A stretch of 22,649 nucleotides of DNA from a virus. Below, in pieces: positions 3,046 through 15,424 of this stretch. Made by a program: the position numbers and the translations under genes. The notes beneath the pieces were generated by a model that was not told the origin of the DNA, did no database searches, and was given only the letters and a program-made list of their open reading frames with translations. Positions within the stretch are counted from its first letter, which is position 1, and every line of letters starts with the position of its first letter. The stretch is taken from positions 1-22,649 of the IMG/VR virus record IMGVR_UViG_3300042448_001973; one strand, written 5' to 3'.

Positions 3046-4344
3046 TTAGTAATTCTTTCCAGTGCCAAGCTTATAGTAGTTATTAAGAACACCACTTGTT
3101 AGCGCAGCGCCTGTTGTATAAGAACCACTCATGAAGATACCGTTGTTTGTATCATTAGCTCCACCGATTTGAACACTATAAGTCAAATCGACAGTTTGGT
3201 TTCCACCAATATCAGTTGAGAAGTTTTCAGAACTCAAAATAGCACCTTTAATTTGATATACTATTTTTGGAGTAACTGTTCCGCCAACATCAGCGCATTG
3301 ATTTAGAGTTACAGTAAAGTTTTTCTTATCAGCAGCGCCGCAAAGCTGATCAAAGATATCAGCTTCTTGTAGTTCATTAACAATAGCGTTAATAGTTATA
3401 TCCATATTTAATGGAACTTCTAAAACGCGAGCGAAACCGAATACATTTCCAAGTCTTTGAAGAACTGTTCTAGTTAGAGGAATAGTAAAAGCAAAACTTT
3501 GAATATGAGCTTTATTTCCAGCTTCATCTAGTTCAGTAAATCCATCGTTAACTGGTAAAGAAAGAACAATATCACCAGGACGGAGAGCAGAAACCGAACT
3601 TACTCCTGTTGTATTATTTCCAGTACCGATAACATATCCTCTATTATCTCCTGTTAAACGAGTTGCTGGGGTTTGAGTATAATCTATTGCAGGAGATCTT
3701 CCAGTTAAAACAGTTGAGCCATTATCAAGTAATTGAGTTTTATTTACATCACTCTTTATATTGAAAGCTTCAACAGTTACACTGGCTGTTGGAATGTTTC
3801 CAACAGAAGCGTCTAGACTATATTCTGTAACAAATCCATTGCCTACAGCAATAACAGAATTACTAGCGCTAGATAAATTAGCACCTACAACATCCTCACC
3901 TTCATCTACGGTTATGATATAATAATTATTACCTTGAGTATCTATCATTAAACCAGAAATGGCACTAGCATTACTAACGCATTGAAGATCAGCGGTTGAA
4001 CTTCTTCCAGAAAAATTGAATCCCATCAATCTTTCATTTAAGCCATCAGTAACATAATAACTGAAATCCAAGCCTACTGTTGGAGTATCATTTACAATAC
4101 TATCAATACGAGCTAGTTGACCTAGTTCGTTGATGTCTTGACGATTAATTGTAAAATTGAAATTACAATTTTGTACTCTGTCAAGTTTATAAAGAAGGCT
4201 TATACCGCTGGCTAATTGGCCAGTTGTATAAGCTGATGTAGCTACTGCGTTTTCAGCTATTGTAGCGCCACTGACTTGAATACCAGTGCTGTTTGGAGCT
4301 ATGTATAAAGCCTGACTTTGATAAATTACGCGATTTCTTGCCAT
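3046..4344 (-). CDS. Major tail (tail tube) protein with duplicated tube domain
   Basis: A 432-residue protein and the last gene of the minus-strand operon. Residues about 57-101 have NFTINRQDINELGQL, then P88, then GLDFSYYVTDG, similar to tail tube proteins as I know them. A second copy starts at residue 281: I281-Q, F286 and TRTVLQRLG align without gaps to V57-Q, F62 and NRQDINELG at an offset of 224 residues. A doubled tube domain and this length resemble the T5 tube protein pb6, which forms trimeric rings, against about 150-250 residues for single-domain tubes. The insert between copies (about 110-270) may be a surface-exposed domain. Three genes upstream look like neck and tail completion proteins, in the usual siphovirus order. 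The 58-base leader (4345-4402) holds no promoter I can defend. Role inferred; no sheath gene is seen. Confidence 0.6.
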   Translation of the reverse strand: MARNRVIYQSQALYIAPNSTGIQVSGATIAENAVATSAYTTGQLASGISLLYKLDRVQNCNFNFTINRQDINELGQLARIDSIVNDTPTVGLDFSYYVTDGLNERLMGFNFSGRSSTADLQCVSNASAISGLMIDTQGNNYYIITVDEGEDVVGANLSSASNSVIAVGNGFVTEYSLDASVGNIPTASVTVEAFNIKSDVNKTQLLDNGSTVLTGRSPAIDYTQTPATRLTGDNRGYVIGTGNNTTGVSSVSALRPGDIVLSLPVNDGFTELDEAGNKAHIQSFAFTIPLTRTVLQRLGNVFGFARVLEVPLNMDITINAIVNELQEADIFDQLCGAADKKNFTVTLNQCADVGGTVTPKIVYQIKGAILSSENFSTDIGGNQTVDLTYSVQIGGANDTNNGIFMSGSYTTGAALTSGVLNNYYKLGTGKNY

Positions 4345-4402
4345 ATTTTTTTATTTGTTAAAATGTTAATTATTTTTACAGTGTATGGGCTATTTTGTGA
4401 AA

Positions 4403-5263
4403 TTATAATCTTGGGTATCTAATGTTGCCTATATTCCAATCGATAAATCCAATATGAAGAATTGGATTAAGTTCTTTTACAACATCATCTTTTATTTTAG
4501 ATGTTGTTACGTCATATATGTAGCATTTTTTATCTGTATGTTGTTTGTTGACATCAATATAATTATAACCAGTAGGATACAATCCCGTCTTTAAATTATT
4601 ATATTCACCCAATGGGTGATTAGTCATTGGTATGATATTGAAATTAGTGTTATATGTGTCGGCAAATGCGCTTAGAACACCGTCTAATTGATAAAGATTT
4701 TCTGCAAACACAACCGCTTTCATTCGTACTCTTGTTTCGTCTTCACCACCAAGCGCAAATCCATTATTATCTATATTTTCTATTGATATAAATGCACAAG
4801 GTGTAACTGGATTATATGGAGGCACATATGTTTCACTAACTGTGAATCTACTATTAGTAACATATTTTCCTTCGATTATTAAATTATCTTCAGGCTGATC
4901 TGTTATGTAACTATTTATTTCTTTTACAGTATATGTACCAGTTATATTTAGATTTTTAGAAACTCCACTATTAAAAACTATGCGCCCATTGTCGAAATCA
5001 ATATACATGCCGCTCGTTCCAGTTGGTACAAAAGAATTATTAATTAAAAATCCAGAAGGTATAGAAATTCCTGCTACACTATTGTCATATGCCCATTGTT
5101 TATATGGACTACCATAAACAACTTTATTATCGCCAAGTCGCGCATCAGTATAATTATATAATTTTGTAGTATATGTTTGAAAAGCTTCAGCTTTTCTCAT
5201 TAAATGATTATCAAACCATAAGAAAAAACTATTTGTTATATTATGTGAAAATGCTGGGATCAT
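4403..5263 (-). CDS. Tail completion/terminator-like structural protein
   Basis: A 286-residue protein. It begins NITNSFFLWFDNHLM, has SPYKQWAYDNSVAG near residue 55, a beta-rich stretch with IDFDNGRIVFNSG, and a well-ordered core FISIENIDNNGFALGG followed by ETRVRMKAVVFAENLYQLDG around residues 160-195. I recognise no enzyme motif. Its place between neck-type genes and the tube gene is where siphoviruses encode the tail terminator or tail completion protein that caps the tube and joins it to the head, and a beta core with a long helix fits, but it is longer than most terminators (about 130-200 residues). Its ATG overlaps the previous stop as ATGA, so translation is probably coupled. Function is inferred mainly from gene order. 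Confidence 0.45.
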   Translation of the reverse strand: MIPAFSHNITNSFFLWFDNHLMRKAEAFQTYTTKLYNYTDARLGDNKVVYGSPYKQWAYDNSVAGISIPSGFLINNSFVPTGTSGMYIDFDNGRIVFNSGVSKNLNITGTYTVKEINSYITDQPEDNLIIEGKYVTNSRFTVSETYVPPYNPVTPCAFISIENIDNNGFALGGEDETRVRMKAVVFAENLYQLDGVLSAFADTYNTNFNIIPMTNHPLGEYNNLKTGLYPTGYNYIDVNKQHTDKKCYIYDVTTSKIKDDVVKELNPILHIGFIDWNIGNIRYPRL

Positions 5264-5859
5264 AAAATTGTATCCTTAGATAAATCTTGAATTTTTTTTG
5301 TGTATGAATTTATAAGATATGATATGTATTTTGTATTCTTAAATCTAACTCCATTTCTTATGGGTGTTTGAGATTGAATGCCTAATCCAGATCTGCTATT
5401 CTTAGTTTTTTTAATATAATATCCCAATCCTGATATTCCTAATTCTATGCCTTGTGACCAACTGCGTCCAGTTGCCCAAGGCATGGGAGTCACTTTAAAA
5501 ATATCTTTGGCAGTTGGAAATTCAACAGAGAAGACCAATTCGCCTTTACTATTTGTAGTATGTTTTAAATTAATTTTTTTTAATTCTTCACGAATAGGAT
5601 TTAGTGGATTGTCGCCACTTTCAAATCCTATAAATGAATAAAGATTTGTAACACCATCAAGCGTATTGGAAATATTGCTGGCAGTTATTCCGCCATTTAT
5701 TTCTTGCGTGACAGGATGGTTTTCAAACTCTTCAATAATTTCTTGTTTAATTTTTTCAATTTGTTTTTGAAGTTGTGAATAAACATATTGTATATAATTG
5801 TTTTGTTTCACTAACTGTTCGGCAATTTGATTTAGATCTGCTGAATCAAGTTTTGTCAT
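5260..5859 (-). CDS. Neck-type structural protein with N-terminal coiled coil
   Basis: A 199-residue protein. Residues about 10-50 form a likely coiled coil (QLVKQNNYIQYVYSQLQKQ and following charged heptads), then EFENHPVTQEI and the Gly/Ser-rich ASNISNTLDG, then a globular part with TPMPWATGRSW and a basic C-terminal segment RNGVRFKNTKYISYLINSY. It has no membrane segment or enzyme motif. Position two of four in an operon that ends with the tube protein fits a neck protein of the HK97 gp10 type, but I cannot see the classic gp10 signature. It starts 2 bases after the upstream gene and overlaps the next by 4 bases, so all three are made from one message. Another possible role is a tail-tube chaperone or connector subunit. 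Confidence 0.45.
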   Translation of the reverse strand: MTKLDSADLNQIAEQLVKQNNYIQYVYSQLQKQIEKIKQEIIEEFENHPVTQEINGGITASNISNTLDGVTNLYSFIGFESGDNPLNPIREELKKINLKHTTNSKGELVFSVEFPTAKDIFKVTPMPWATGRSWSQGIELGISGLGYYIKKTKNSRSGLGIQSQTPIRNGVRFKNTKYISYLINSYTKKIQDLSKDTIL

Positions 5860-5861
5860 TT

Positions 5862-6317
5862 TTAGGGATCAGGTTTGAGATATAATGTATAATATTGTAC
5901 ATCAAATAAGCCATGAGGTCTAAATGTAGAATTAAGAACATATCTTTTACCGTCAACATCAAAACGGCGAGCGTCTTTGACGTAATCATAAGCGTCTTGA
6001 TCGATCTTTAATCTTACAGTTCCAACTACAGCTTCTAGTTTTATTTGAGAATTTAATCCTTGTTCACTCCAATATTTTTTACCAACGTCATCTTGATATT
6101 GAATTCTTGCTTTGAATGTTTTATAAACAGGTGTATTTATTATTGAAGTAGTTTGACCAGCGGTCTTATACAGCGGATTATAATTAGGGTCCGTTATGAT
6201 AACAACTGTAGAGGCTTCTTTAAAAACAGTTATTTCACGGGCAAAAGTTTCATGTATATCATCAAAGACAGCCGCCAAAGCTGCTTTTTCAGTAGAAGTT
6301 AATAAACTAGTTCCCAT
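5862..6317 (-). CDS. Head-closure/neck-like protein, first gene of the minus-strand operon
   Basis: A 151-residue protein. An N-terminal helix (TEKAALAAVFDDIHETFAR) leads into beta strands (ITVFKEASTVVIITDPNYNP, then VYKTFKARIQYQDD) and a C-terminal RRFDVDGKRYVLNSTFRPHG, ending in strands. Size, beta content and the strands around FDVDGKRYVL resemble small head-closure or stopper proteins of siphoviruses (SPP1 gp16 type), which bind the connector and hold DNA in before tail joining. This is fold-level reasoning, not a recognised signature. It is the first gene of the operon that ends at the tube gene and faces the chaperone-tape measure operon across 40 bp. Its leader can be no longer than about 40 nt if the promoter lies in that gap, and it has no Shine-Dalgarno sequence. 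Confidence 0.45.
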   Translation of the reverse strand: MGTSLLTSTEKAALAAVFDDIHETFAREITVFKEASTVVIITDPNYNPLYKTAGQTTSIINTPVYKTFKARIQYQDDVGKKYWSEQGLNSQIKLEAVVGTVRLKIDQDAYDYVKDARRFDVDGKRYVLNSTFRPHGLFDVQYYTLYLKPDP

Positions 6318-8125: not shown

Positions 8126-11100
8126 ATGTCAGTACAGATTAACGTCCAAGCGAGTCAATCGGCATTAGCTCAGAGCATATCGCAAGGTGTGGCGGCATAT
8201 AATGCTAGATTTGCAAGCCAAAATCAATTAAATTTACAGATTAATCCCAGAAGTTTTTCTCAACCTTTAGGCAGAATAACTAGTGATTTAGCTGATTTTG
8301 AATCTGCATTGAAAGCTTCTAATGCTCGCGTACTTGCATTCGGAGCTTCTACTGCTGTATTAGGTGGTGCAGTAAAGACTTTTAAAGAATTAGCTAATAT
8401 AACTATTGAAATTGAAAAATCTCTAACAGATGTTAATCGTGTTTTAGGTTTATCAACTTCAGGATTGCAAAAATTCTCAAGTGAATTGTTCACTATATCT
8501 AAACAAACAGCTTCGTCTTTTGACGATGCTACAAAAGCTGCTTTAGAATTTTCTCGTCAAGGTTTAAATACAGAAGAAACATTAAAAAGAACTGCTGATG
8601 CTTTAACTCTAGTTCGTTTAACTGGAATAAGTTCTAGACAAGCCGTTGAAGATTTGACTTCTACAATCAATGGATTTTCTAAAGCTGGATTAACAACAGC
8701 TCAAGTTGTTAATAAATTAGCAGCAGTTGAACAAGATTTCGCAGTATCAGCAAGCGATTTAACTGAAGCTTTGTCAAGAACAGGTCAAGCAGCCCAAGAA
8801 GCTGGAGTTGATTTCGATCAACTAAATGCTTTGGTTACAACCGCTCAACAAAGTACAGCAAGAGGTGGCGCTGTAATTGGTAACGCATTAAAAACAATTT
8901 TTACTCGTCTACAAAGAACTGATACTCTAGATCAGTTAGAAAAATTTAATATTATTGTTCGCGATGTCGAGGGTAATATTTTACCAGCCGTTCAAATTTT
9001 ACAAAATTTTGCTAATAAATATAATGATCTTGCTGACGCTCAACGCGCTCAATTATCAGAACAAGTAGCTGGTGTTTATCAAGTTAACATTCTTAAAGGA
9101 ATTGTTAATGATTTAACAAATACTCAAGGAACTTATACAAAAGCATTAGAAAGAGGAGCTAAAGCTTCAAATGAAGCTGATTTGGCAAATCAAAAATTAA
9201 ATAAAACTCTAAGCGCACTCGCTACTCAAACAGGTTTAGGTTTACAGCAATTAGCTAATAATGTAGGTAAAGTAACGTTTGCTCCAATATTTGAAGCTAT
9301 AGTATCTCCAGTAAATGATGCCGTAAAATATATAAATGACACTTTAGAGGGAGAAGGTCCGGGGTCTATTTTTGCTAATGGTTTATTAAAAGGTATTCGC
9401 AATGTAATTACTGGACCGGGATTGGCTATTGCATTTGCAGTTATTGCTAAAGTCGCTAAAAATACATTTGAAGATGCTACAAAAGCTTTGCCAGCTATTT
9501 TAGGTTTAACAACAGAAGCTCAAAAAAGAGCGAATATTGAAAAATCAATATTATCAATTCTTCAGGGTCAAAGCCAGTTATCAATGGCTCTTCAAGGACA
9601 ACAAGGTAACGAAATTGCACAAGCGCAAACATTATTAAATTTTGCAAAATTACAAACAGCACAGTATCAACAACAATTACAATTAGCTCAACAATTAGCT
9701 CCGTTATTGTCTGCTCAAGGAGCAACCGTTGGAGCTAGAGGCATTCAAGTAGGGCCAAGAATAAAAGCTGGTGGTCATATTCCAGCATTTGCTGAAATGT
9801 CTGAAAGAATGGGTGCAGCCATGGGTGGTTACAAGGCTGGTAAGGTTATAAAAGCTCCAAGCTCAGTAGGAGCTAACACTTACATGAATACAGCGGAGGA
9901 AACAAAATATGTTTCTGGTTTTAATCAACCATTTATTAATCCTCCTGCTGGATCAAAAGCTGGTCGCGCACACAGAAAAAATTCTATAAATAAAACTGGT
10001 ATTGATCCATATATGTATGGTGGATTTATACCTAATTTTGCAACTAAAAAAGATCAAATTTTGTTTAATAAACGAATTGGAAGAGCTTTTGAAGATAAAG
10101 TCGGTATGGATATTGGAATGTCTCCTTCGTTCAATAAGCCTATAGATTTTATAAGCGTACCTAAAGTTCCATCTGATCCAGCTAAAGAGTATAATAAAAA
10201 TTTTTATTCATCACAAACATTTGCAGATGCTTATAGTGGCACCGGACATAATGCAGCGACTAATATTGGAAAAGTAATAAGACATCTTAATTTGAATTAT
10301 GGTAATATACTTAAAAATCCATATTCAGATGATTATTTTTTTGATGGAAAAGATTTAATTTTAGATCCTAATTTTACTGAAATAATAGGAAAAGGAAAAG
10401 ATCAGCCGATTGCTATTGCTAGTAGTAGAGCATCAAGTTTAGCTCCTGATTCTAAATCTGTATTTTTGCAAGGCTTAAACAAAAAGCAACAAACAAAAGC
10501 TTTAAAACAAAGAATTATAATGGAGTTTGCCAAAGATAAGGTAAATGTTGATTACGATAAATTTAATGGTTTTATTCCTAATTTTGCTGTACCAATGAGT
10601 ACTGCAAGAATTCCTTGGTTTAAAAAATATTCTAGTAAATATAAAGATATTGCTGGTGATACAGATCTTTTCAAAATGGGAGATTTTCCTACTTATGGAA
10701 AAGGTTTAAATCACGAATACGCTAAAAAAGGTAATGCCAATATGCTTTCTTATTTGCATGAAGACTTTGTTAGATCTGCATTAAATATAGCTTTAGGTTC
10801 AAAAAAGGTAATAAGACCATCAGAAGTTGGGTTTAAAAATAAACCTATAGGTGATATAGCAAATAGTAATGATTTTGATTTATTATATAAAATTGCTGAT
10901 GGTTCATACAGCATGTTGGAGTTGAAGCAAGATTTCAAAAATATTTCTGGATCAATTAGTGGATTCATGAATGCTAAACTTGAAAATCTTAAAAAAGAAA
11001 ATCCAGAATTGGCAAAAAAAGTAAGTTCGATGATAGCGGTATCAAATATGCCTAAATTTATTGATCCTACTGGTAAAAATCCAGCAGGACAATTTAGTGA

Positions 11101-14100
11101 ATTTGAAATGGCCGCTGCATCAATTGTTAAAGATAAATATTCAAATGTTAATCCTACAATAAGCGCAAAACTCACAAAAGTTACAGACGGTTTATTAAGA
11201 AGATACGAAGCTAAGAAAAATACTGTATATGGTGGTTTTATACCTAACTTTGCTTATGAACAAGCGGTAATGGGTCTTGAACAAAGTATGAGTGGTAATA
11301 AAGCTATTCTTGATACTAAGTCTGGACCTTTTCCATTTATTAGAAATAGCAGTCAGCCAAATTTTGCTTCTGCTATCTCAGACCATGGTGGTTTAAAAAA
11401 TGCTTTGAATGATTCAATGCGTAATCAAGAAGCCGCTGGATTAATGAGCAAAGGGTTTGTCCCAAATTTTGCGACTTTAAATGCTAAACAATCTTTAGGT
11501 ATGGATTTTGGAGCTTTAACTGGTTCAGAACAACAATTATTTGTTGAATTGAATAAAGCTCTTTCTAGATTAACAAGAGATATAAATTTATCAGCACAAG
11601 AGCAGGCGATGTTGCAAAATACAGTTCAACAAAATGCTCAAGCTTTACAACAAAGCACTAAATCAAGTACGATAGTTGCAGAGGCAAATAATGGTTTAAT
11701 TAAAGCTACTCAGCAAAATCAAAATGCACAGAAAAAAGCTGCTGCTGCATCCGCAGCTTCCGCAGCAGCGGCACTAAAGCCAATGCCTTCAAGATCTGTT
11801 AATCCTGCTTCTATAAATCCGAATACAATTTCAGCAAATCGTGGGGGTTTGATGAATTCATTATCATCAATGACTAATAAATTATCTGGAAACGTTGGTT
11901 TTCAGATAGCGGTTCCAATGATTGCTGGACAGTTAGAATCAATTATTGCACAAGGTAGAGATAGATCTGAAATGAGTTATGGTCAAAGATTGGGATCAAC
12001 TGGTGTTAGCGCAGCTTTAACTGGAGCTAGTACTGGAGCATTGATAGGCAGTATAATTCCAGGATTTGGAACAGCATTAGGCGCAGCAGTTGGGGCAGCG
12101 GTTGGATTTGGTGGAGCCATGATTAACGCAAGATCTAATGTTGATGATTTTGCAAAATCAATTCAGAATGCAACTCAAAAAGATAAAGAAGCTGAAAATG
12201 CAGTACAAGGTTATACAAGTTCTTTAAAAAAACTTGAAGAAGGCGGATTGACTCCAAAAGAACGAGAAAAAACAGAAAAAGAAAGACAAAAATATTTATT
12301 AAAAATACCTGCCGCTATAAAAGCAGGAATAAATCCAAACGCTTCATCCGCTGAAGTTGAAAAAACTTTAGAAGACCTTCAGATATCAAACGATAAAAGA
12401 GAAAAAGTAAGAAATTTACAAGTTCTTGCATCGTCCGATTTAACTAAAGATCAATTTGATACAGCAAGACAAACAATAGCTGAATTATCATTAGTAGATA
12501 AAAGATTTAAAAATATAGCTGACGCTATAACTTCATCACAGACTGGTGAAGAAAGGGCTGCATTTTTAGCAAAAGGTGGGGGTTTAGAGCAACAATTATC
12601 TAGATCAGAAACTTTTAAATCTTTAAAACCAGAAGAACAAAAACAAGTTATTGAAGGATTTAGAAATGCTTTTGCTGAAAATACACAAGGAACTATAAGA
12701 GCTTCTAAGTTAGGAACTAGTATGCAAGATGCCAGACAAGTTGCAGAAGAAATCAAAAGAACTGCTCCTAATAATAGTGCAAAAAAATCGGCTTCAGATA
12801 TATATTTAGAAATAGATAAATTTTTAAATTCTACAGCTATCACTCTTAGACAAACATTAGCTGAAGAAGAATTCGCTGATAAGTTCAATGAATTAAAAAC
12901 AACATTTGAAAATTCTTTAGTAGAAGGTTTAATTTCTCCTGTAAAATCAATTACAGCACAAACAGAATTAAAAAAGAGTAATTTACAAAACGCTTATAAT
13001 AGAGAAATAAAAACAGCTAACTTAGATTTTACAACAAAATTCGCTGATCAGATAAGAAGTACTCCTGTATTGGGAAGCAATCCAACAGTAATTCAAAAAT
13101 TAAAAGATTTTACGAATAAAGAAGGTGGAGCGACTACAGCGGAACTAGAGCAGTTTATAAACGAAGCTCCATTAATGACCATTCCACCAGATACATTGCA
13201 AAAAATAATGAAAATGATATCTGATCAAAAAGCTCTTGAAAAAGATAAAGCAGATAATTTGTCTAGAGAAAAAAAGAATCTTGATGAAAGTGGTCGCCAA
13301 GCGATTTTAAGAGAAGAGCTATCTCGATCTGCAAATATTAGAGCTTCTCAAATGGGTTCTGCACAGATGGAAAGAAACATTATACTATCTGGAAGACAAA
13401 CAACTTCTGAAATTCAACAAGCAAGAGAAGATAGATATTTAAACGATGTTTCGAATTTTTATAACATGGGTATGCAGAGACAATCAGAGCTTCGCATTGG
13501 TTATAGAGAAACTGCGACTGCAAGAAATATTCAAACGTTTAATGCAAATCAATTAGAAACAGCTAATACAAATGTTTTAGATGCTGAAAGGCTTCGTATA
13601 ACAAATGAAATAGCAACCGCTAATGCTGCTAATAATAAACAATTAGCAGATTCATTAAGAAAATCTCCATTATTGAATCAGACTAATTTAGAAAATCTTG
13701 AAACATTACAACAAACAATATCTGAACAAGAAAAATATGTAAAATCATTGAATGGTCAAGGTGAGCAATTTACTGCTGCAAATAATTCTTTAACTCAGTT
13801 GAAACGAATTCAGGCAGATATAATAAATAATACCAAAAGAGAAACAGAATTGCTAAAAATAAGAAATGAAGAAGAAAGAAAACGAGTTCGTGATGCTAAA
13901 TCTTTTTCTGTTGGATTGAGTGCTGGTTTTGATGATATAAATAAAGAAAGAGAAACTTTTGCAAATGACTTTGGACAAAAAATTCCAGGTTTATTTAGAG
14001 ATGGTTTGGTTGGAGCTATGGATGCTGCTCTTAATAAAGCTGATGATCTTGAATCGGCTTTGATGGGAGTAGCTGCTTCTTTCTTAAGAGAAATACAAGG

Positions 14101-15424
14101 AATGATGTTGCGCAATATTGCTAATAATATAGTAGGAAGTATTGGAAGCTCTTTTTCATTTGGTCAACCTAAATCAGCAATTGAAGCGGGACAGCAAAGA
14201 GGCGGATTCATTCGCGCTCAAAAAGGAATGTATATCAGCGGCGGAAGAACTGGAGACAAGAATCCTGCATTGCTTGAAGATGGCGAATACGTATTAAATA
14301 GAAATGCTGTCAAATCTCTTGGTGGTCCAAGAGCTATTGATCAATTAAATTTTAATGCATTTCCACGTTTTGCCACAGGTGGAGATCCCGGTTCAATGTC
14401 AGCTTCTGTAAATATGGATGCTCCATTTGAAAGATTAAGCATGTATGGACGCGAACAAAGTCCAGAGTTCCAAAATTATTTAGAAAAAATTAGAGAAGAA
14501 GAAGCTGCTAAAGAAAAGAAACGTGCAGAAAGAAAAGCTTTATTAAACCAATTTATTGGAACATTAATTAGTACTGGTGTATCGATGGGCATATCTTCTG
14601 CTGTTAGCGCTGCTAAAAATAGTTCAATGGCAAATGCAAATTTGAAGGGCGCAACAGGATCTATGTCTAATGGAACAACAACACAAGTAACAAATTTTGC
14701 TGATGCTAAATCTTTGATTGACAGTGGCGGTTCAATTACATTAGCAAATGGTTCTGTTTTAACAAAATCTAATTTTGCTGATGGTTTTTCAAGATCAACA
14801 TTTAATGAAGTTGCTGCAACTAGATTTTCTCAGTCTGGAATAAGAATTAATTCAGGAAATTTATTTAGAAAATCTTCAGCTACTTTAATGGGTAAAGATT
14901 ATGCTAATCAAGCTGTTAAAGAAAATTTTACAAATCCTGCTGCTGCTTTTAGTCGTTCACAATCTATATATGAATTCACGCCTTATAAAGGAAAACAACA
15001 AGGTGGTGCAATCGGTTTTAATCAAGGTGGATTTTTACCATATGGTTCACGTTTAACTGATAGTATTCCAGCTTATTTAACGGGTGGCGAATATGTTGTA
15101 AATAGTAGAGCAGTTAGAAAATATGGTGTTGGTGGATTAAATAAAATAAATTCTGGCGTAGCAAGATTCCAAGATGGAGGAATGGTTGATACTGAAACAA
15201 GCTCTCCGTCTAACACTTCAAATACTTCTAATAATAATGTTTCTATAAATATTACTGTTAATGCAAGTAGTGGTAAAGTTGGAGATCAAGAATCAGATTC
15301 TAATAACGAAGGAACAGAGGGAAATGCTAAAGAATTAAGTAATAGAATTAAAGCTGTTGTTCTTGATGTTATAACAACCGAACAAAGAACTGGCGGATTA
15401 TTAGATTCAACTAAGAAACGATAA
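8126..15424 (+). CDS. Tape measure protein with embedded nuclease-like domains
   Basis: A 2432-residue protein that spans the tail lumen, sets tail length and exits ahead of the DNA. Residues about 60-330 resemble the TP901-type tape measure domain (AFGASTAVLGGAVKTFKELA, then TARGGAVIGNALKTIFTRLQ). A hydrophobic stretch lies near 420-445. Residues 550-1116 carry six GFIPNFA-like motifs separated by globular inserts, one with a PD-(D/E)XK signature. Gln-rich helices follow, then a glycine-zipper hydrophobic segment at about 1293-1333 that could enter a membrane, then about 700 residues of charged helix. Near 2000 a lambda-like stretch (ESALMGVAASFLREIQ) leads to two copies of a Gly-rich GEYV-type motif at 2053 and 2321. 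At about 0.15 nm per helical residue the upper limit is near 365 nm, less with folded inserts. The stop overlaps the next start as TAATG. Confidence 0.9.
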   Translation: MSVQINVQASQSALAQSISQGVAAYNARFASQNQLNLQINPRSFSQPLGRITSDLADFESALKASNARVLAFGASTAVLGGAVKTFKELANITIEIEKSLTDVNRVLGLSTSGLQKFSSELFTISKQTASSFDDATKAALEFSRQGLNTEETLKRTADALTLVRLTGISSRQAVEDLTSTINGFSKAGLTTAQVVNKLAAVEQDFAVSASDLTEALSRTGQAAQEAGVDFDQLNALVTTAQQSTARGGAVIGNALKTIFTRLQRTDTLDQLEKFNIIVRDVEGNILPAVQILQNFANKYNDLADAQRAQLSEQVAGVYQVNILKGIVNDLTNTQGTYTKALERGAKASNEADLANQKLNKTLSALATQTGLGLQQLANNVGKVTFAPIFEAIVSPVNDAVKYINDTLEGEGPGSIFANGLLKGIRNVITGPGLAIAFAVIAKVAKNTFEDATKALPAILGLTTEAQKRANIEKSILSILQGQSQLSMALQGQQGNEIAQAQTLLNFAKLQTAQYQQQLQLAQQLAPLLSAQGATVGARGIQVGPRIKAGGHIPAFAEMSERMGAAMGGYKAGKVIKAPSSVGANTYMNTAEETKYVSGFNQPFINPPAGSKAGRAHRKNSINKTGIDPYMYGGFIPNFATKKDQILFNKRIGRAFEDKVGMDIGMSPSFNKPIDFISVPKVPSDPAKEYNKNFYSSQTFADAYSGTGHNAATNIGKVIRHLNLNYGNILKNPYSDDYFFDGKDLILDPNFTEIIGKGKDQPIAIASSRASSLAPDSKSVFLQGLNKKQQTKALKQRIIMEFAKDKVNVDYDKFNGFIPNFAVPMSTARIPWFKKYSSKYKDIAGDTDLFKMGDFPTYGKGLNHEYAKKGNANMLSYLHEDFVRSALNIALGSKKVIRPSEVGFKNKPIGDIANSNDFDLLYKIADGSYSMLELKQDFKNISGSISGFMNAKLENLKKENPELAKKVSSMIAVSNMPKFIDPTGKNPAGQFSEFEMAAASIVKDKYSNVNPTISAKLTKVTDGLLRRYEAKKNTVYGGFIPNFAYEQAVMGLEQSMSGNKAILDTKSGPFPFIRNSSQPNFASAISDHGGLKNALNDSMRNQEAAGLMSKGFVPNFATLNAKQSLGMDFGALTGSEQQLFVELNKALSRLTRDINLSAQEQAMLQNTVQQNAQALQQSTKSSTIVAEANNGLIKATQQNQNAQKKAAAASAASAAAALKPMPSRSVNPASINPNTISANRGGLMNSLSSMTNKLSGNVGFQIAVPMIAGQLESIIAQGRDRSEMSYGQRLGSTGVSAALTGASTGALIGSIIPGFGTALGAAVGAAVGFGGAMINARSNVDDFAKSIQNATQKDKEAENAVQGYTSSLKKLEEGGLTPKEREKTEKERQKYLLKIPAAIKAGINPNASSAEVEKTLEDLQISNDKREKVRNLQVLASSDLTKDQFDTARQTIAELSLVDKRFKNIADAITSSQTGEERAAFLAKGGGLEQQLSRSETFKSLKPEEQKQVIEGFRNAFAENTQGTIRASKLGTSMQDARQVAEEIKRTAPNNSAKKSASDIYLEIDKFLNSTAITLRQTLAEEEFADKFNELKTTFENSLVEGLISPVKSITAQTELKKSNLQNAYNREIKTANLDFTTKFADQIRSTPVLGSNPTVIQKLKDFTNKEGGATTAELEQFINEAPLMTIPPDTLQKIMKMISDQKALEKDKADNLSREKKNLDESGRQAILREELSRSANIRASQMGSAQMERNIILSGRQTTSEIQQAREDRYLNDVSNFYNMGMQRQSELRIGYRETATARNIQTFNANQLETANTNVLDAERLRITNEIATANAANNKQLADSLRKSPLLNQTNLENLETLQQTISEQEKYVKSLNGQGEQFTAANNSLTQLKRIQADIINNTKRETELLKIRNEEERKRVRDAKSFSVGLSAGFDDINKERETFANDFGQKIPGLFRDGLVGAMDAALNKADDLESALMGVAASFLREIQGMMLRNIANNIVGSIGSSFSFGQPKSAIEAGQQRGGFIRAQKGMYISGGRTGDKNPALLEDGEYVLNRNAVKSLGGPRAIDQLNFNAFPRFATGGDPGSMSASVNMDAPFERLSMYGREQSPEFQNYLEKIREEEAAKEKKRAERKALLNQFIGTLISTGVSMGISSAVSAAKNSSMANANLKGATGSMSNGTTTQVTNFADAKSLIDSGGSITLANGSVLTKSNFADGFSRSTFNEVAATRFSQSGIRINSGNLFRKSSATLMGKDYANQAVKENFTNPAAAFSRSQSIYEFTPYKGKQQGGAIGFNQGGFLPYGSRLTDSIPAYLTGGEYVVNSRAVRKYGVGGLNKINSGVARFQDGGMVDTETSSPSNTSNTSNNNVSINITVNASSGKVGDQESDSNNEGTEGNAKELSNRIKAVVLDVITTEQRTGGLLDSTKKR
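10043..10567 (+). other. Tape measure insert 1, possible decayed PD-(D/E)XK domain (residues 640-814)
   Basis: This 175-residue insert lies between two GFIPNFA copies. It opens with a helix GRAFEDKVGMDIG containing E656, followed by a strand with IDF (D674), and then FADAYSG at 699-705. That is the order of a restriction-endonuclease fold (helix Glu, strand Asp, then Asp/Glu-x-Lys), but where a lysine would be expected after D701 there is Tyr703. It may therefore be an inactive relative of insert 2, or an unrelated domain. The rest of the insert has no motif I recognise. Confidence 0.35.
10589..11233 (+). other. Tape measure insert 2, PD-(D/E)XK nuclease-like domain (residues 822-1036)
   Basis: This 215-residue insert lies between two GFIPNFA copies. 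A helix with LHEDFVRSALNIA (E879) is followed by GDIANSNDFDLLYKIADG and SMLELKQDF. D918, 13 residues, then E932-x-K934 match the PD-(D/E)XK active site, with E879 as the helix-1 glutamate. Predicted order is helix, strand, hairpin, strand, as in nucleases of this fold. All key residues are present, so it could be active. The target is unknown; a domain delivered with the tape measure could cut host DNA or a defence plasmid, or act on phage DNA ends. Confidence 0.6.

Follow-up and report, generated by a model that had tools for sequence, protein, structure and literature searches.

The viral sequence IMGVR_UViG_3300042448_001973 (IMG/VR), analysed here over its positions 1 to 22,649 and referred to as the window, carries on its plus strand (8126-15424) an open reading frame (ORF) for a product of 2,432 amino acid residues, which by sequence homology is a tape measure protein (TMP), and within this protein residues 822-1036 (positions 10589-11233) probably form an exchangeable nuclease cassette of the PD-(D/E)XK type. 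The Pfam family PhageMin_Tail matched the product with 95.9 bits (cut-off 33.2 bits) and an E-value of 3.9e-27, which marks its N-terminal region as homologous to tape measures, and comparison with PHROGs returned ten 'tail length tape measure' families with E-values of 8e-9 or better as well as a match to PHROG 4211 with an E-value of 5.7e-46. The putative nuclease segment fills exactly the gap between two copies of the motif GFIPNFA (TMP residues 815-821 and 1037-1043), and three more copies or variants of this motif are present in the TMP at residues 550, 633 and 1110.

Conserved residues and predicted fold of the cassette

The original prediction had described the segment as carrying the residue order of a PD-(D/E)XK nuclease, and the residues E879, D918, E932 and K934 were found exactly where it had placed them, at positions 58, 97, 111 and 113 of the domain; between D918 and E932 lie 13 residues. 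The original prediction did not mention the GFIPNFA copies that border the segment, or that it is one of several exchangeable cassettes. A first scan of viral contigs for the domain revealed eleven loci with 85-100% identity, and profile-based scans added further subfamilies with about 27-56% identity, all of which lie within tape measure ORFs. Alignment A7 comprises 27 domain sequences from several subfamilies with 27-88% identity to the window and, of the 51 D/E/K positions of the domain, solely E879, D918 and K934 are invariant in it (one choice in 20,825), a conservation beyond chance. Position 932 is occupied by E in 21 sequences, by D in 5 and by Q in 1, and the distance from D to K ranges from 11 to 16 residues; clearly, these residues do not vary freely among homologues. 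The glutamine variant (L229) reads 'QAK', and Mrr-type enzymes, which belong to the PD-(D/E)XK superfamily, likewise include QxK variants. For the cassette, the ratio of nonsynonymous to synonymous substitution rates (dN/dS) was 0.15-0.20 when relatives were compared to the window and 0.085-0.23 among the relatives, low values which indicate that the cassette is under purifying selection at the protein level. If the nuclease fold had been retained in a non-catalytic form, for binding or as a tail-length spacer, this would be in line with the tolerance of TMPs for length variation (2,328 to 3,487 amino acids across relatives). However, a spacer would not be expected to keep the catalytic residues alone invariant while the remainder diverges to about 30% identity, and this explanation is very unlikely.

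When the domain was modelled with AlphaFold (AF2) from the single sequence, the predicted local distance difference test score (pLDDT) was 37, and with the 27-row alignment A7 the best model reached a pLDDT of 79.5 and a predicted template modelling score (pTM) of 0.81. This model contains a helix at domain positions 50-69, a strand at 74-75, strands at 98-101 and 107-113, a helix at 123-137 and a strand at 145-152, and thereby the alpha-beta-beta-beta-alpha-beta order, although the first strand consists of just two residues. E879 lies within helix 50-69, D918 (D97) directly precedes strand 98-101, and E932 (E111) and K934 (K113) are inside strand 107-113. Given a regular hairpin, the register obtained from DSSP would bring D918 opposite E932 and place K934 on the same face as E932.

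In a Foldseek search against the PDB, the top rows were PD-(D/E)XK proteins, namely arenavirus and bunyavirus endonucleases, AvaII, EcoO109I, HincII, RecU and VRR_NUC, with a best E-value of 0.039. Similarly, the best rows of VIA-align (Z 4 to 5.1) were bunyavirus endonucleases, FAN1, AvaII, McrBC, VRR_NUC, Card1, Hjc and Kpn2I, alongside two unrelated rows (Rep15) and a few rows of uncertain assignment, and a search of a library of viral structures gave the same picture. By our own assignment, about 45 of the 50 top structural rows are PD-(D/E)XK proteins, each of them a weak match (Z at most 5.1; Foldseek E-value 0.039). A sequence search of the PDB with the domain found no family. The case for the PD-(D/E)XK fold therefore lies in the agreement of the hit lists together with the conservation pattern, and not in any single match. 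On this basis, the fold and active site predicted for TMP residues 822-1036 are well supported by sequence and model, and the nuclease-fold reading of the original prediction is supported by the modelled order of helices and strands, the opposed positions expected for D918 and E932 from the DSSP register and the conserved key residues. Since the nearest structural rows include the cap-snatching endonucleases of La Crosse virus, Ebinur Lake virus, lymphocytic choriomeningitis virus (LCMV) and severe fever with thrombocytopenia syndrome virus (SFTSV), the domain might be thought an RNase effector that cuts host tRNA, mRNA or defence RNA after entry. However, Z values within 1 of each other amount to a tie, the DNA cutters AvaII, McrBC, FAN1 and Hjc are equally near and the fold is silent on the substrate, so that an RNase effector appears unlikely.

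Positions, strand and supporting evidence of features in the tape measure gene of the window
Feature	Positions	Strand	Evidence
Tape measure protein gene with cassette array, 2432 aa	8126..15424	+	ORF; PhageMin_Tail; PHROG tape measure families
GHIPAFA variant, TMP 550	9773..9793	+	Motif scan
Short conserved linker cassette, motifs 550 to 633	9794..10021	+	Common to many TMPs
GFIPNFA, TMP 633	10022..10042	+	Motif scan; alignments end at 639-643
Second cassette, TMP 640-814, exchanged in relatives	10043..10567	+	Homologues in L109 and L224; sequence inspection
GFIPNFA, TMP 815, left border of nuclease cassette	10568..10588	+	Motif scan; alignment breaks here
Probable PD-(D/E)XK nuclease cassette, TMP 822-1036	10589..11233	+	Conserved residues in 27 sequences; AF2 model; structural neighbours; dN/dS
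Codon of E879, invariant glutamate of helix 1	10760..10762	+	27-sequence alignment
Codon of D918, motif aspartate, invariant	10877..10879	+	27-sequence alignment
Codons of E932-L933-K934, (D/E)XK motif; invariant K934, with E, D or Q as residue 932	10919..10927	+	27-sequence alignment
GFIPNFA, TMP 1037, right border of nuclease cassette	11234..11254	+	Motif scan; L009 and L004 DNA alignments break here
Short conserved linker cassette, motifs 1037 to 1110	11255..11452	+	Common to many TMPs
GFVPNFA variant, TMP 1110	11453..11473	+	Motif scan

Cassette exchange and cargo of related tape measures

A pattern scan for GFIPNFA returned at least 119 stretches, mostly long ORFs that contain the motif at least twice, and the cassettes between the motifs differ among TMPs in number, order and kind. 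When this TMP was aligned with others over its positions 500-1250, 143 of the 172 internal alignment breaks fell within 10 amino acids of a motif, compared to 18% expected from the share of positions that lie this close to one, although the breaks are not independent and a binomial value thus overstates the significance. The DNA of L009 is 86.7% identical to the window over TMP residues 814-1043 and 93.7% over residues 1037-2433, and an insertion of about 0.8 kb, made up of other cassettes, falls exactly at the motif and separates its two copies; L004 is 88.5% identical over residues 815-1044, after which a 1.3-kb insert follows. The DNA of L040 is 87% identical over residues 1-639, and its nuclease cassette, which contains 'LDFK', is a distant relative, with about 30% protein identity. 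As judged from these alignments, the motif is where cassettes enter the gene or take one another's place, and this is visible even in DNA. A DNA-level recombination signal was considered as the cause of GFIPNFA conservation and is disfavoured, because the codons used for the motif differ little from background, apart from a modest shift in those for P and G; selection therefore seems to act mainly on the peptide.

Among 113 non-redundant cassettes, 39 showed a PD-(D/E)XK-like pattern, compared to 4 of 1,135 other ORFs and to 100 shuffles in which the matches averaged 3.0 (maximum 9), and this 13-fold enrichment over the shuffles is descriptive, the pattern having been partly fitted after the cassette consensus had been viewed. 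The original prediction had held a nuclease to be much less expected in a tape measure than a peptidoglycan-cutting domain, an expectation that does not hold for these TMPs, in which nuclease-like cassettes are frequent. The enrichment also bears on an accidental likeness, in which a helical TMP segment would by chance contain the D...ExK residues, as might be suspected from the weak individual structure matches and the lack of a family match. The conservation pattern, the strand-containing model, the prevalence of a single fold among the structural hits and the signature in other cassettes all argue against such an accident, which is the least probable of the explanations considered. A group of 23 cassettes with a 'GxxFE' sequence (alignment A10) has invariant G, F, E, D and K residues, and the residue two before the K is D or E.

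Further kinds of cargo were recognised by Pfam in other cassettes, namely SNase (1.9e-9, the best SNase value in the set), GNAT acetyltransferase (4.1e-7), a cytidylyltransferase-related region (6.1e-8), GHKL ATPase (3.7e-5) and AAA_30. Staphylococcal-nuclease-like TMP cassettes with a KDGDT start are located at L096:9909-10436 and L110:8760-9341 (minus strand), and a TMP cassette with the GHKL-type ATPase domain (HATPase_c_3) at L035:5042-6748 (minus strand). For some cassettes a likeness to ADP-ribosyltransferase, HAD phosphatase or protein kinase was suspected by eye, and Pfam gave no support where this was tested. The variety of enzymes is relevant to the possibility that an active PD-(D/E)XK nuclease works on the genome or tail of the phage itself, perhaps by trimming a DNA end or junction at entry. 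The superfamily includes resolvases and end-processing nucleases, the structural neighbours include Hjc and RecU, and the TMP sits in the path of the DNA. However, related TMPs carry unrelated enzymes (SNase, GNAT, GHKL, AAA) in the place of the cassette, which is unsuited to a fixed entry step, and a role in handling the phage's own genome is given as little credence as RNA cleavage in the host.

Two or more effector domains per polypeptide are clear in relatives, and the TMP of the window has one convincing and one doubtful candidate. The doubtful one, cassette 10043-10567, contains on inspection GRAFEDKV and PIDF without a recognisable (D/E)xK, and it gave no match to Pfam or PHROG; it is possibly a decayed, altered or different nuclease.

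Proposed delivery and function

TMP residues 822-1036 are probably an exchangeable PD-(D/E)XK nuclease cassette in a GFIPNFA array, which would be delivered at entry and cut nucleic acid. Borders, exchange, conserved residues and purifying selection are taken from the sequences and the fold from a model, and we infer delivery, activity and target. TMPs are known as rulers, as DNA conduits and sometimes as cell-wall cutters, and a TMP is normally expected to be packaged in the virion and ejected into the bacterium before the DNA. The cassette would be carried in the tail unfolded or held by a chaperone, would leave with the TMP as infection starts and would refold inside the host, where D918, E932 and K934 would bind a metal ion with which the domain cuts nucleic acid. 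Its target would most likely be host or resident foreign DNA, that is, the chromosome, plasmids, rival phages or prophages; the original prediction had likewise suggested an exit ahead of the DNA and an action against host, plasmid or competing phage DNA. The frequent replacement of cassettes is the pattern expected if phages are engaged in an arms race, be it with the defences of the host or with rivals. In the case of phage lambda, the TMP gpH is located at the inner membrane during injection (PMC13190303).

Several points weigh against a delivered nuclease. The five AlphaFold models ranged in pLDDT from 79.5 down to 49, the other four lying at 49 to 74, and no single structural match was strong, with a Foldseek E-value of about 0.04 and Z values of at most 5.1, which are under the trust level of the tool. 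None of the curated families in Pfam, PHROGs, NCBIfam and PADLOC matches the domain above threshold, and the status of the carrier as a TMP is assigned by homology. A profile comparison of A7 with the 'GxxFE' alignment A10 gave no significant alignment, and common descent is therefore not claimed; the two may be separate lineages as judged by their sequences. A folded globular domain does not fit the narrow tail tube, which is why refolding after ejection is assumed, and no means of sparing the phage's own DNA was found.

A wider proposal, which we put forward tentatively as possible rather than probable, is that in a large uncultured phage clade the TMP acts as a rack for interchangeable payloads, about one third of the cassettes being PD-(D/E)XK-like. 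The GFIPNFA motifs would then be joints at the protein level (hinge, docking or cleavage sites), and the cassettes would be threaded through the tail, refolded in the host and swapped by recombination at the motif.

Genomic surroundings and comparison with known systems

At its start (1-933), the window encodes long in-frame SSGSSGTSGG(T) amino acid repeats, cut off by the contig end, which probably belong to a tail fibre or other surface protein. Four minus-strand genes at 3046-6317 are flanked by plus-strand structural genes, and all four lack a PHROG match with an E-value below 0.1. Neither RNA families nor tRNAs were found in the window. The terminase encoded on a near-identical contig is about 25% identical to those of cultured phages, and adjoining the terminase gene on a near-identical contig (L230:2015-2974, minus strand) lies the gene for a 319-residue protein with VDTREQDP and DRKSE motifs, which by eye has the look of an ERCC4-type nuclease. 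The sole genome match was the 3,960-base contig L224, binned to the proteobacterial metagenome-assembled genome (MAG) WB5_3A_111. This contig is a TMP fragment with at least four cassettes, one of them with a P-loop (GPAGSGKTT), and may be a mis-binned phage contig.

The domain and its linkers had no match in 50,697 phage records, and the domain subfamilies likewise had none in cultured phages. GFIPNFA was not found in the proteins examined from three related cultured phages, namely the Lysinibacillus phage LC76P1 TMP, the Bacillus phage Staley TMP and the products of the long ORFs of Microcystis phage MaeS. No description of GFIPNFA or of a TMP nuclease was found in the literature searched, a search with subscription journals and bioRxiv outside its range. 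A large survey of phage protein mosaicism reported a mosaic signal in TMPs and left genuine recent cases unconfirmed (PMC10684548), and the clean DNA-level insertion and replacement of cassettes seen among the window, L009 and L040 bear on this point.

With the PD-(D/E)XK superfamily (AvaII, McrC, VRR_NUC, Hjc and the cap-snatching endonucleases of bunyaviruses and arenaviruses) the domain shares the glutamate of helix 1, the aspartate, an (E/D/Q)xK in the next strand and the order helix-strand-strand-strand-helix-strand. However, it has no detectable sequence relation to a curated or solved family, and it sits inside a TMP. TMPs with cell-wall-cutting domains, such as that of mycobacteriophage TM4 (PMC1796659), are also carriers of an enzyme that is used at entry, but their enzymes cut peptidoglycan, whereas the activity predicted here would cut nucleic acid. 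The contractile injection system effectors Sle1 and Tme (PMC13277306) similarly combine a tape-measure-like carrier with an exchangeable domain and are ejected by a phage-tail-like machine. In those cases, the machines are bacterial, one C-terminal domain is carried and no nuclease is mentioned, whereas in the present case a phage TMP contains an internal array.

The nearest functional parallel is offered by the polyvalent proteins of phages and conjugative elements, long polypeptides which likewise unite several unrelated enzyme domains and which are believed to accompany the DNA into the host (PMC5512222). GNAT and ADP-ribosyltransferase (ART) domains have been reported in polyvalent proteins (PMC5512222), and GNAT-like cassettes were found here. 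The main text of that survey mentions no tape measures (PMC5512222), whereas in the present case the tail-length ruler serves as carrier, the borders are formed by a fixed peptide and PD-(D/E)XK-type nucleases dominate. If a predicted nuclease is indeed part of an exchangeable enzyme array, the tail itself would be an effector-delivery device through which a varying assortment of enzymes may reach the host, and phage tails would thereby be linked both to contractile injection systems and to polyvalent proteins.

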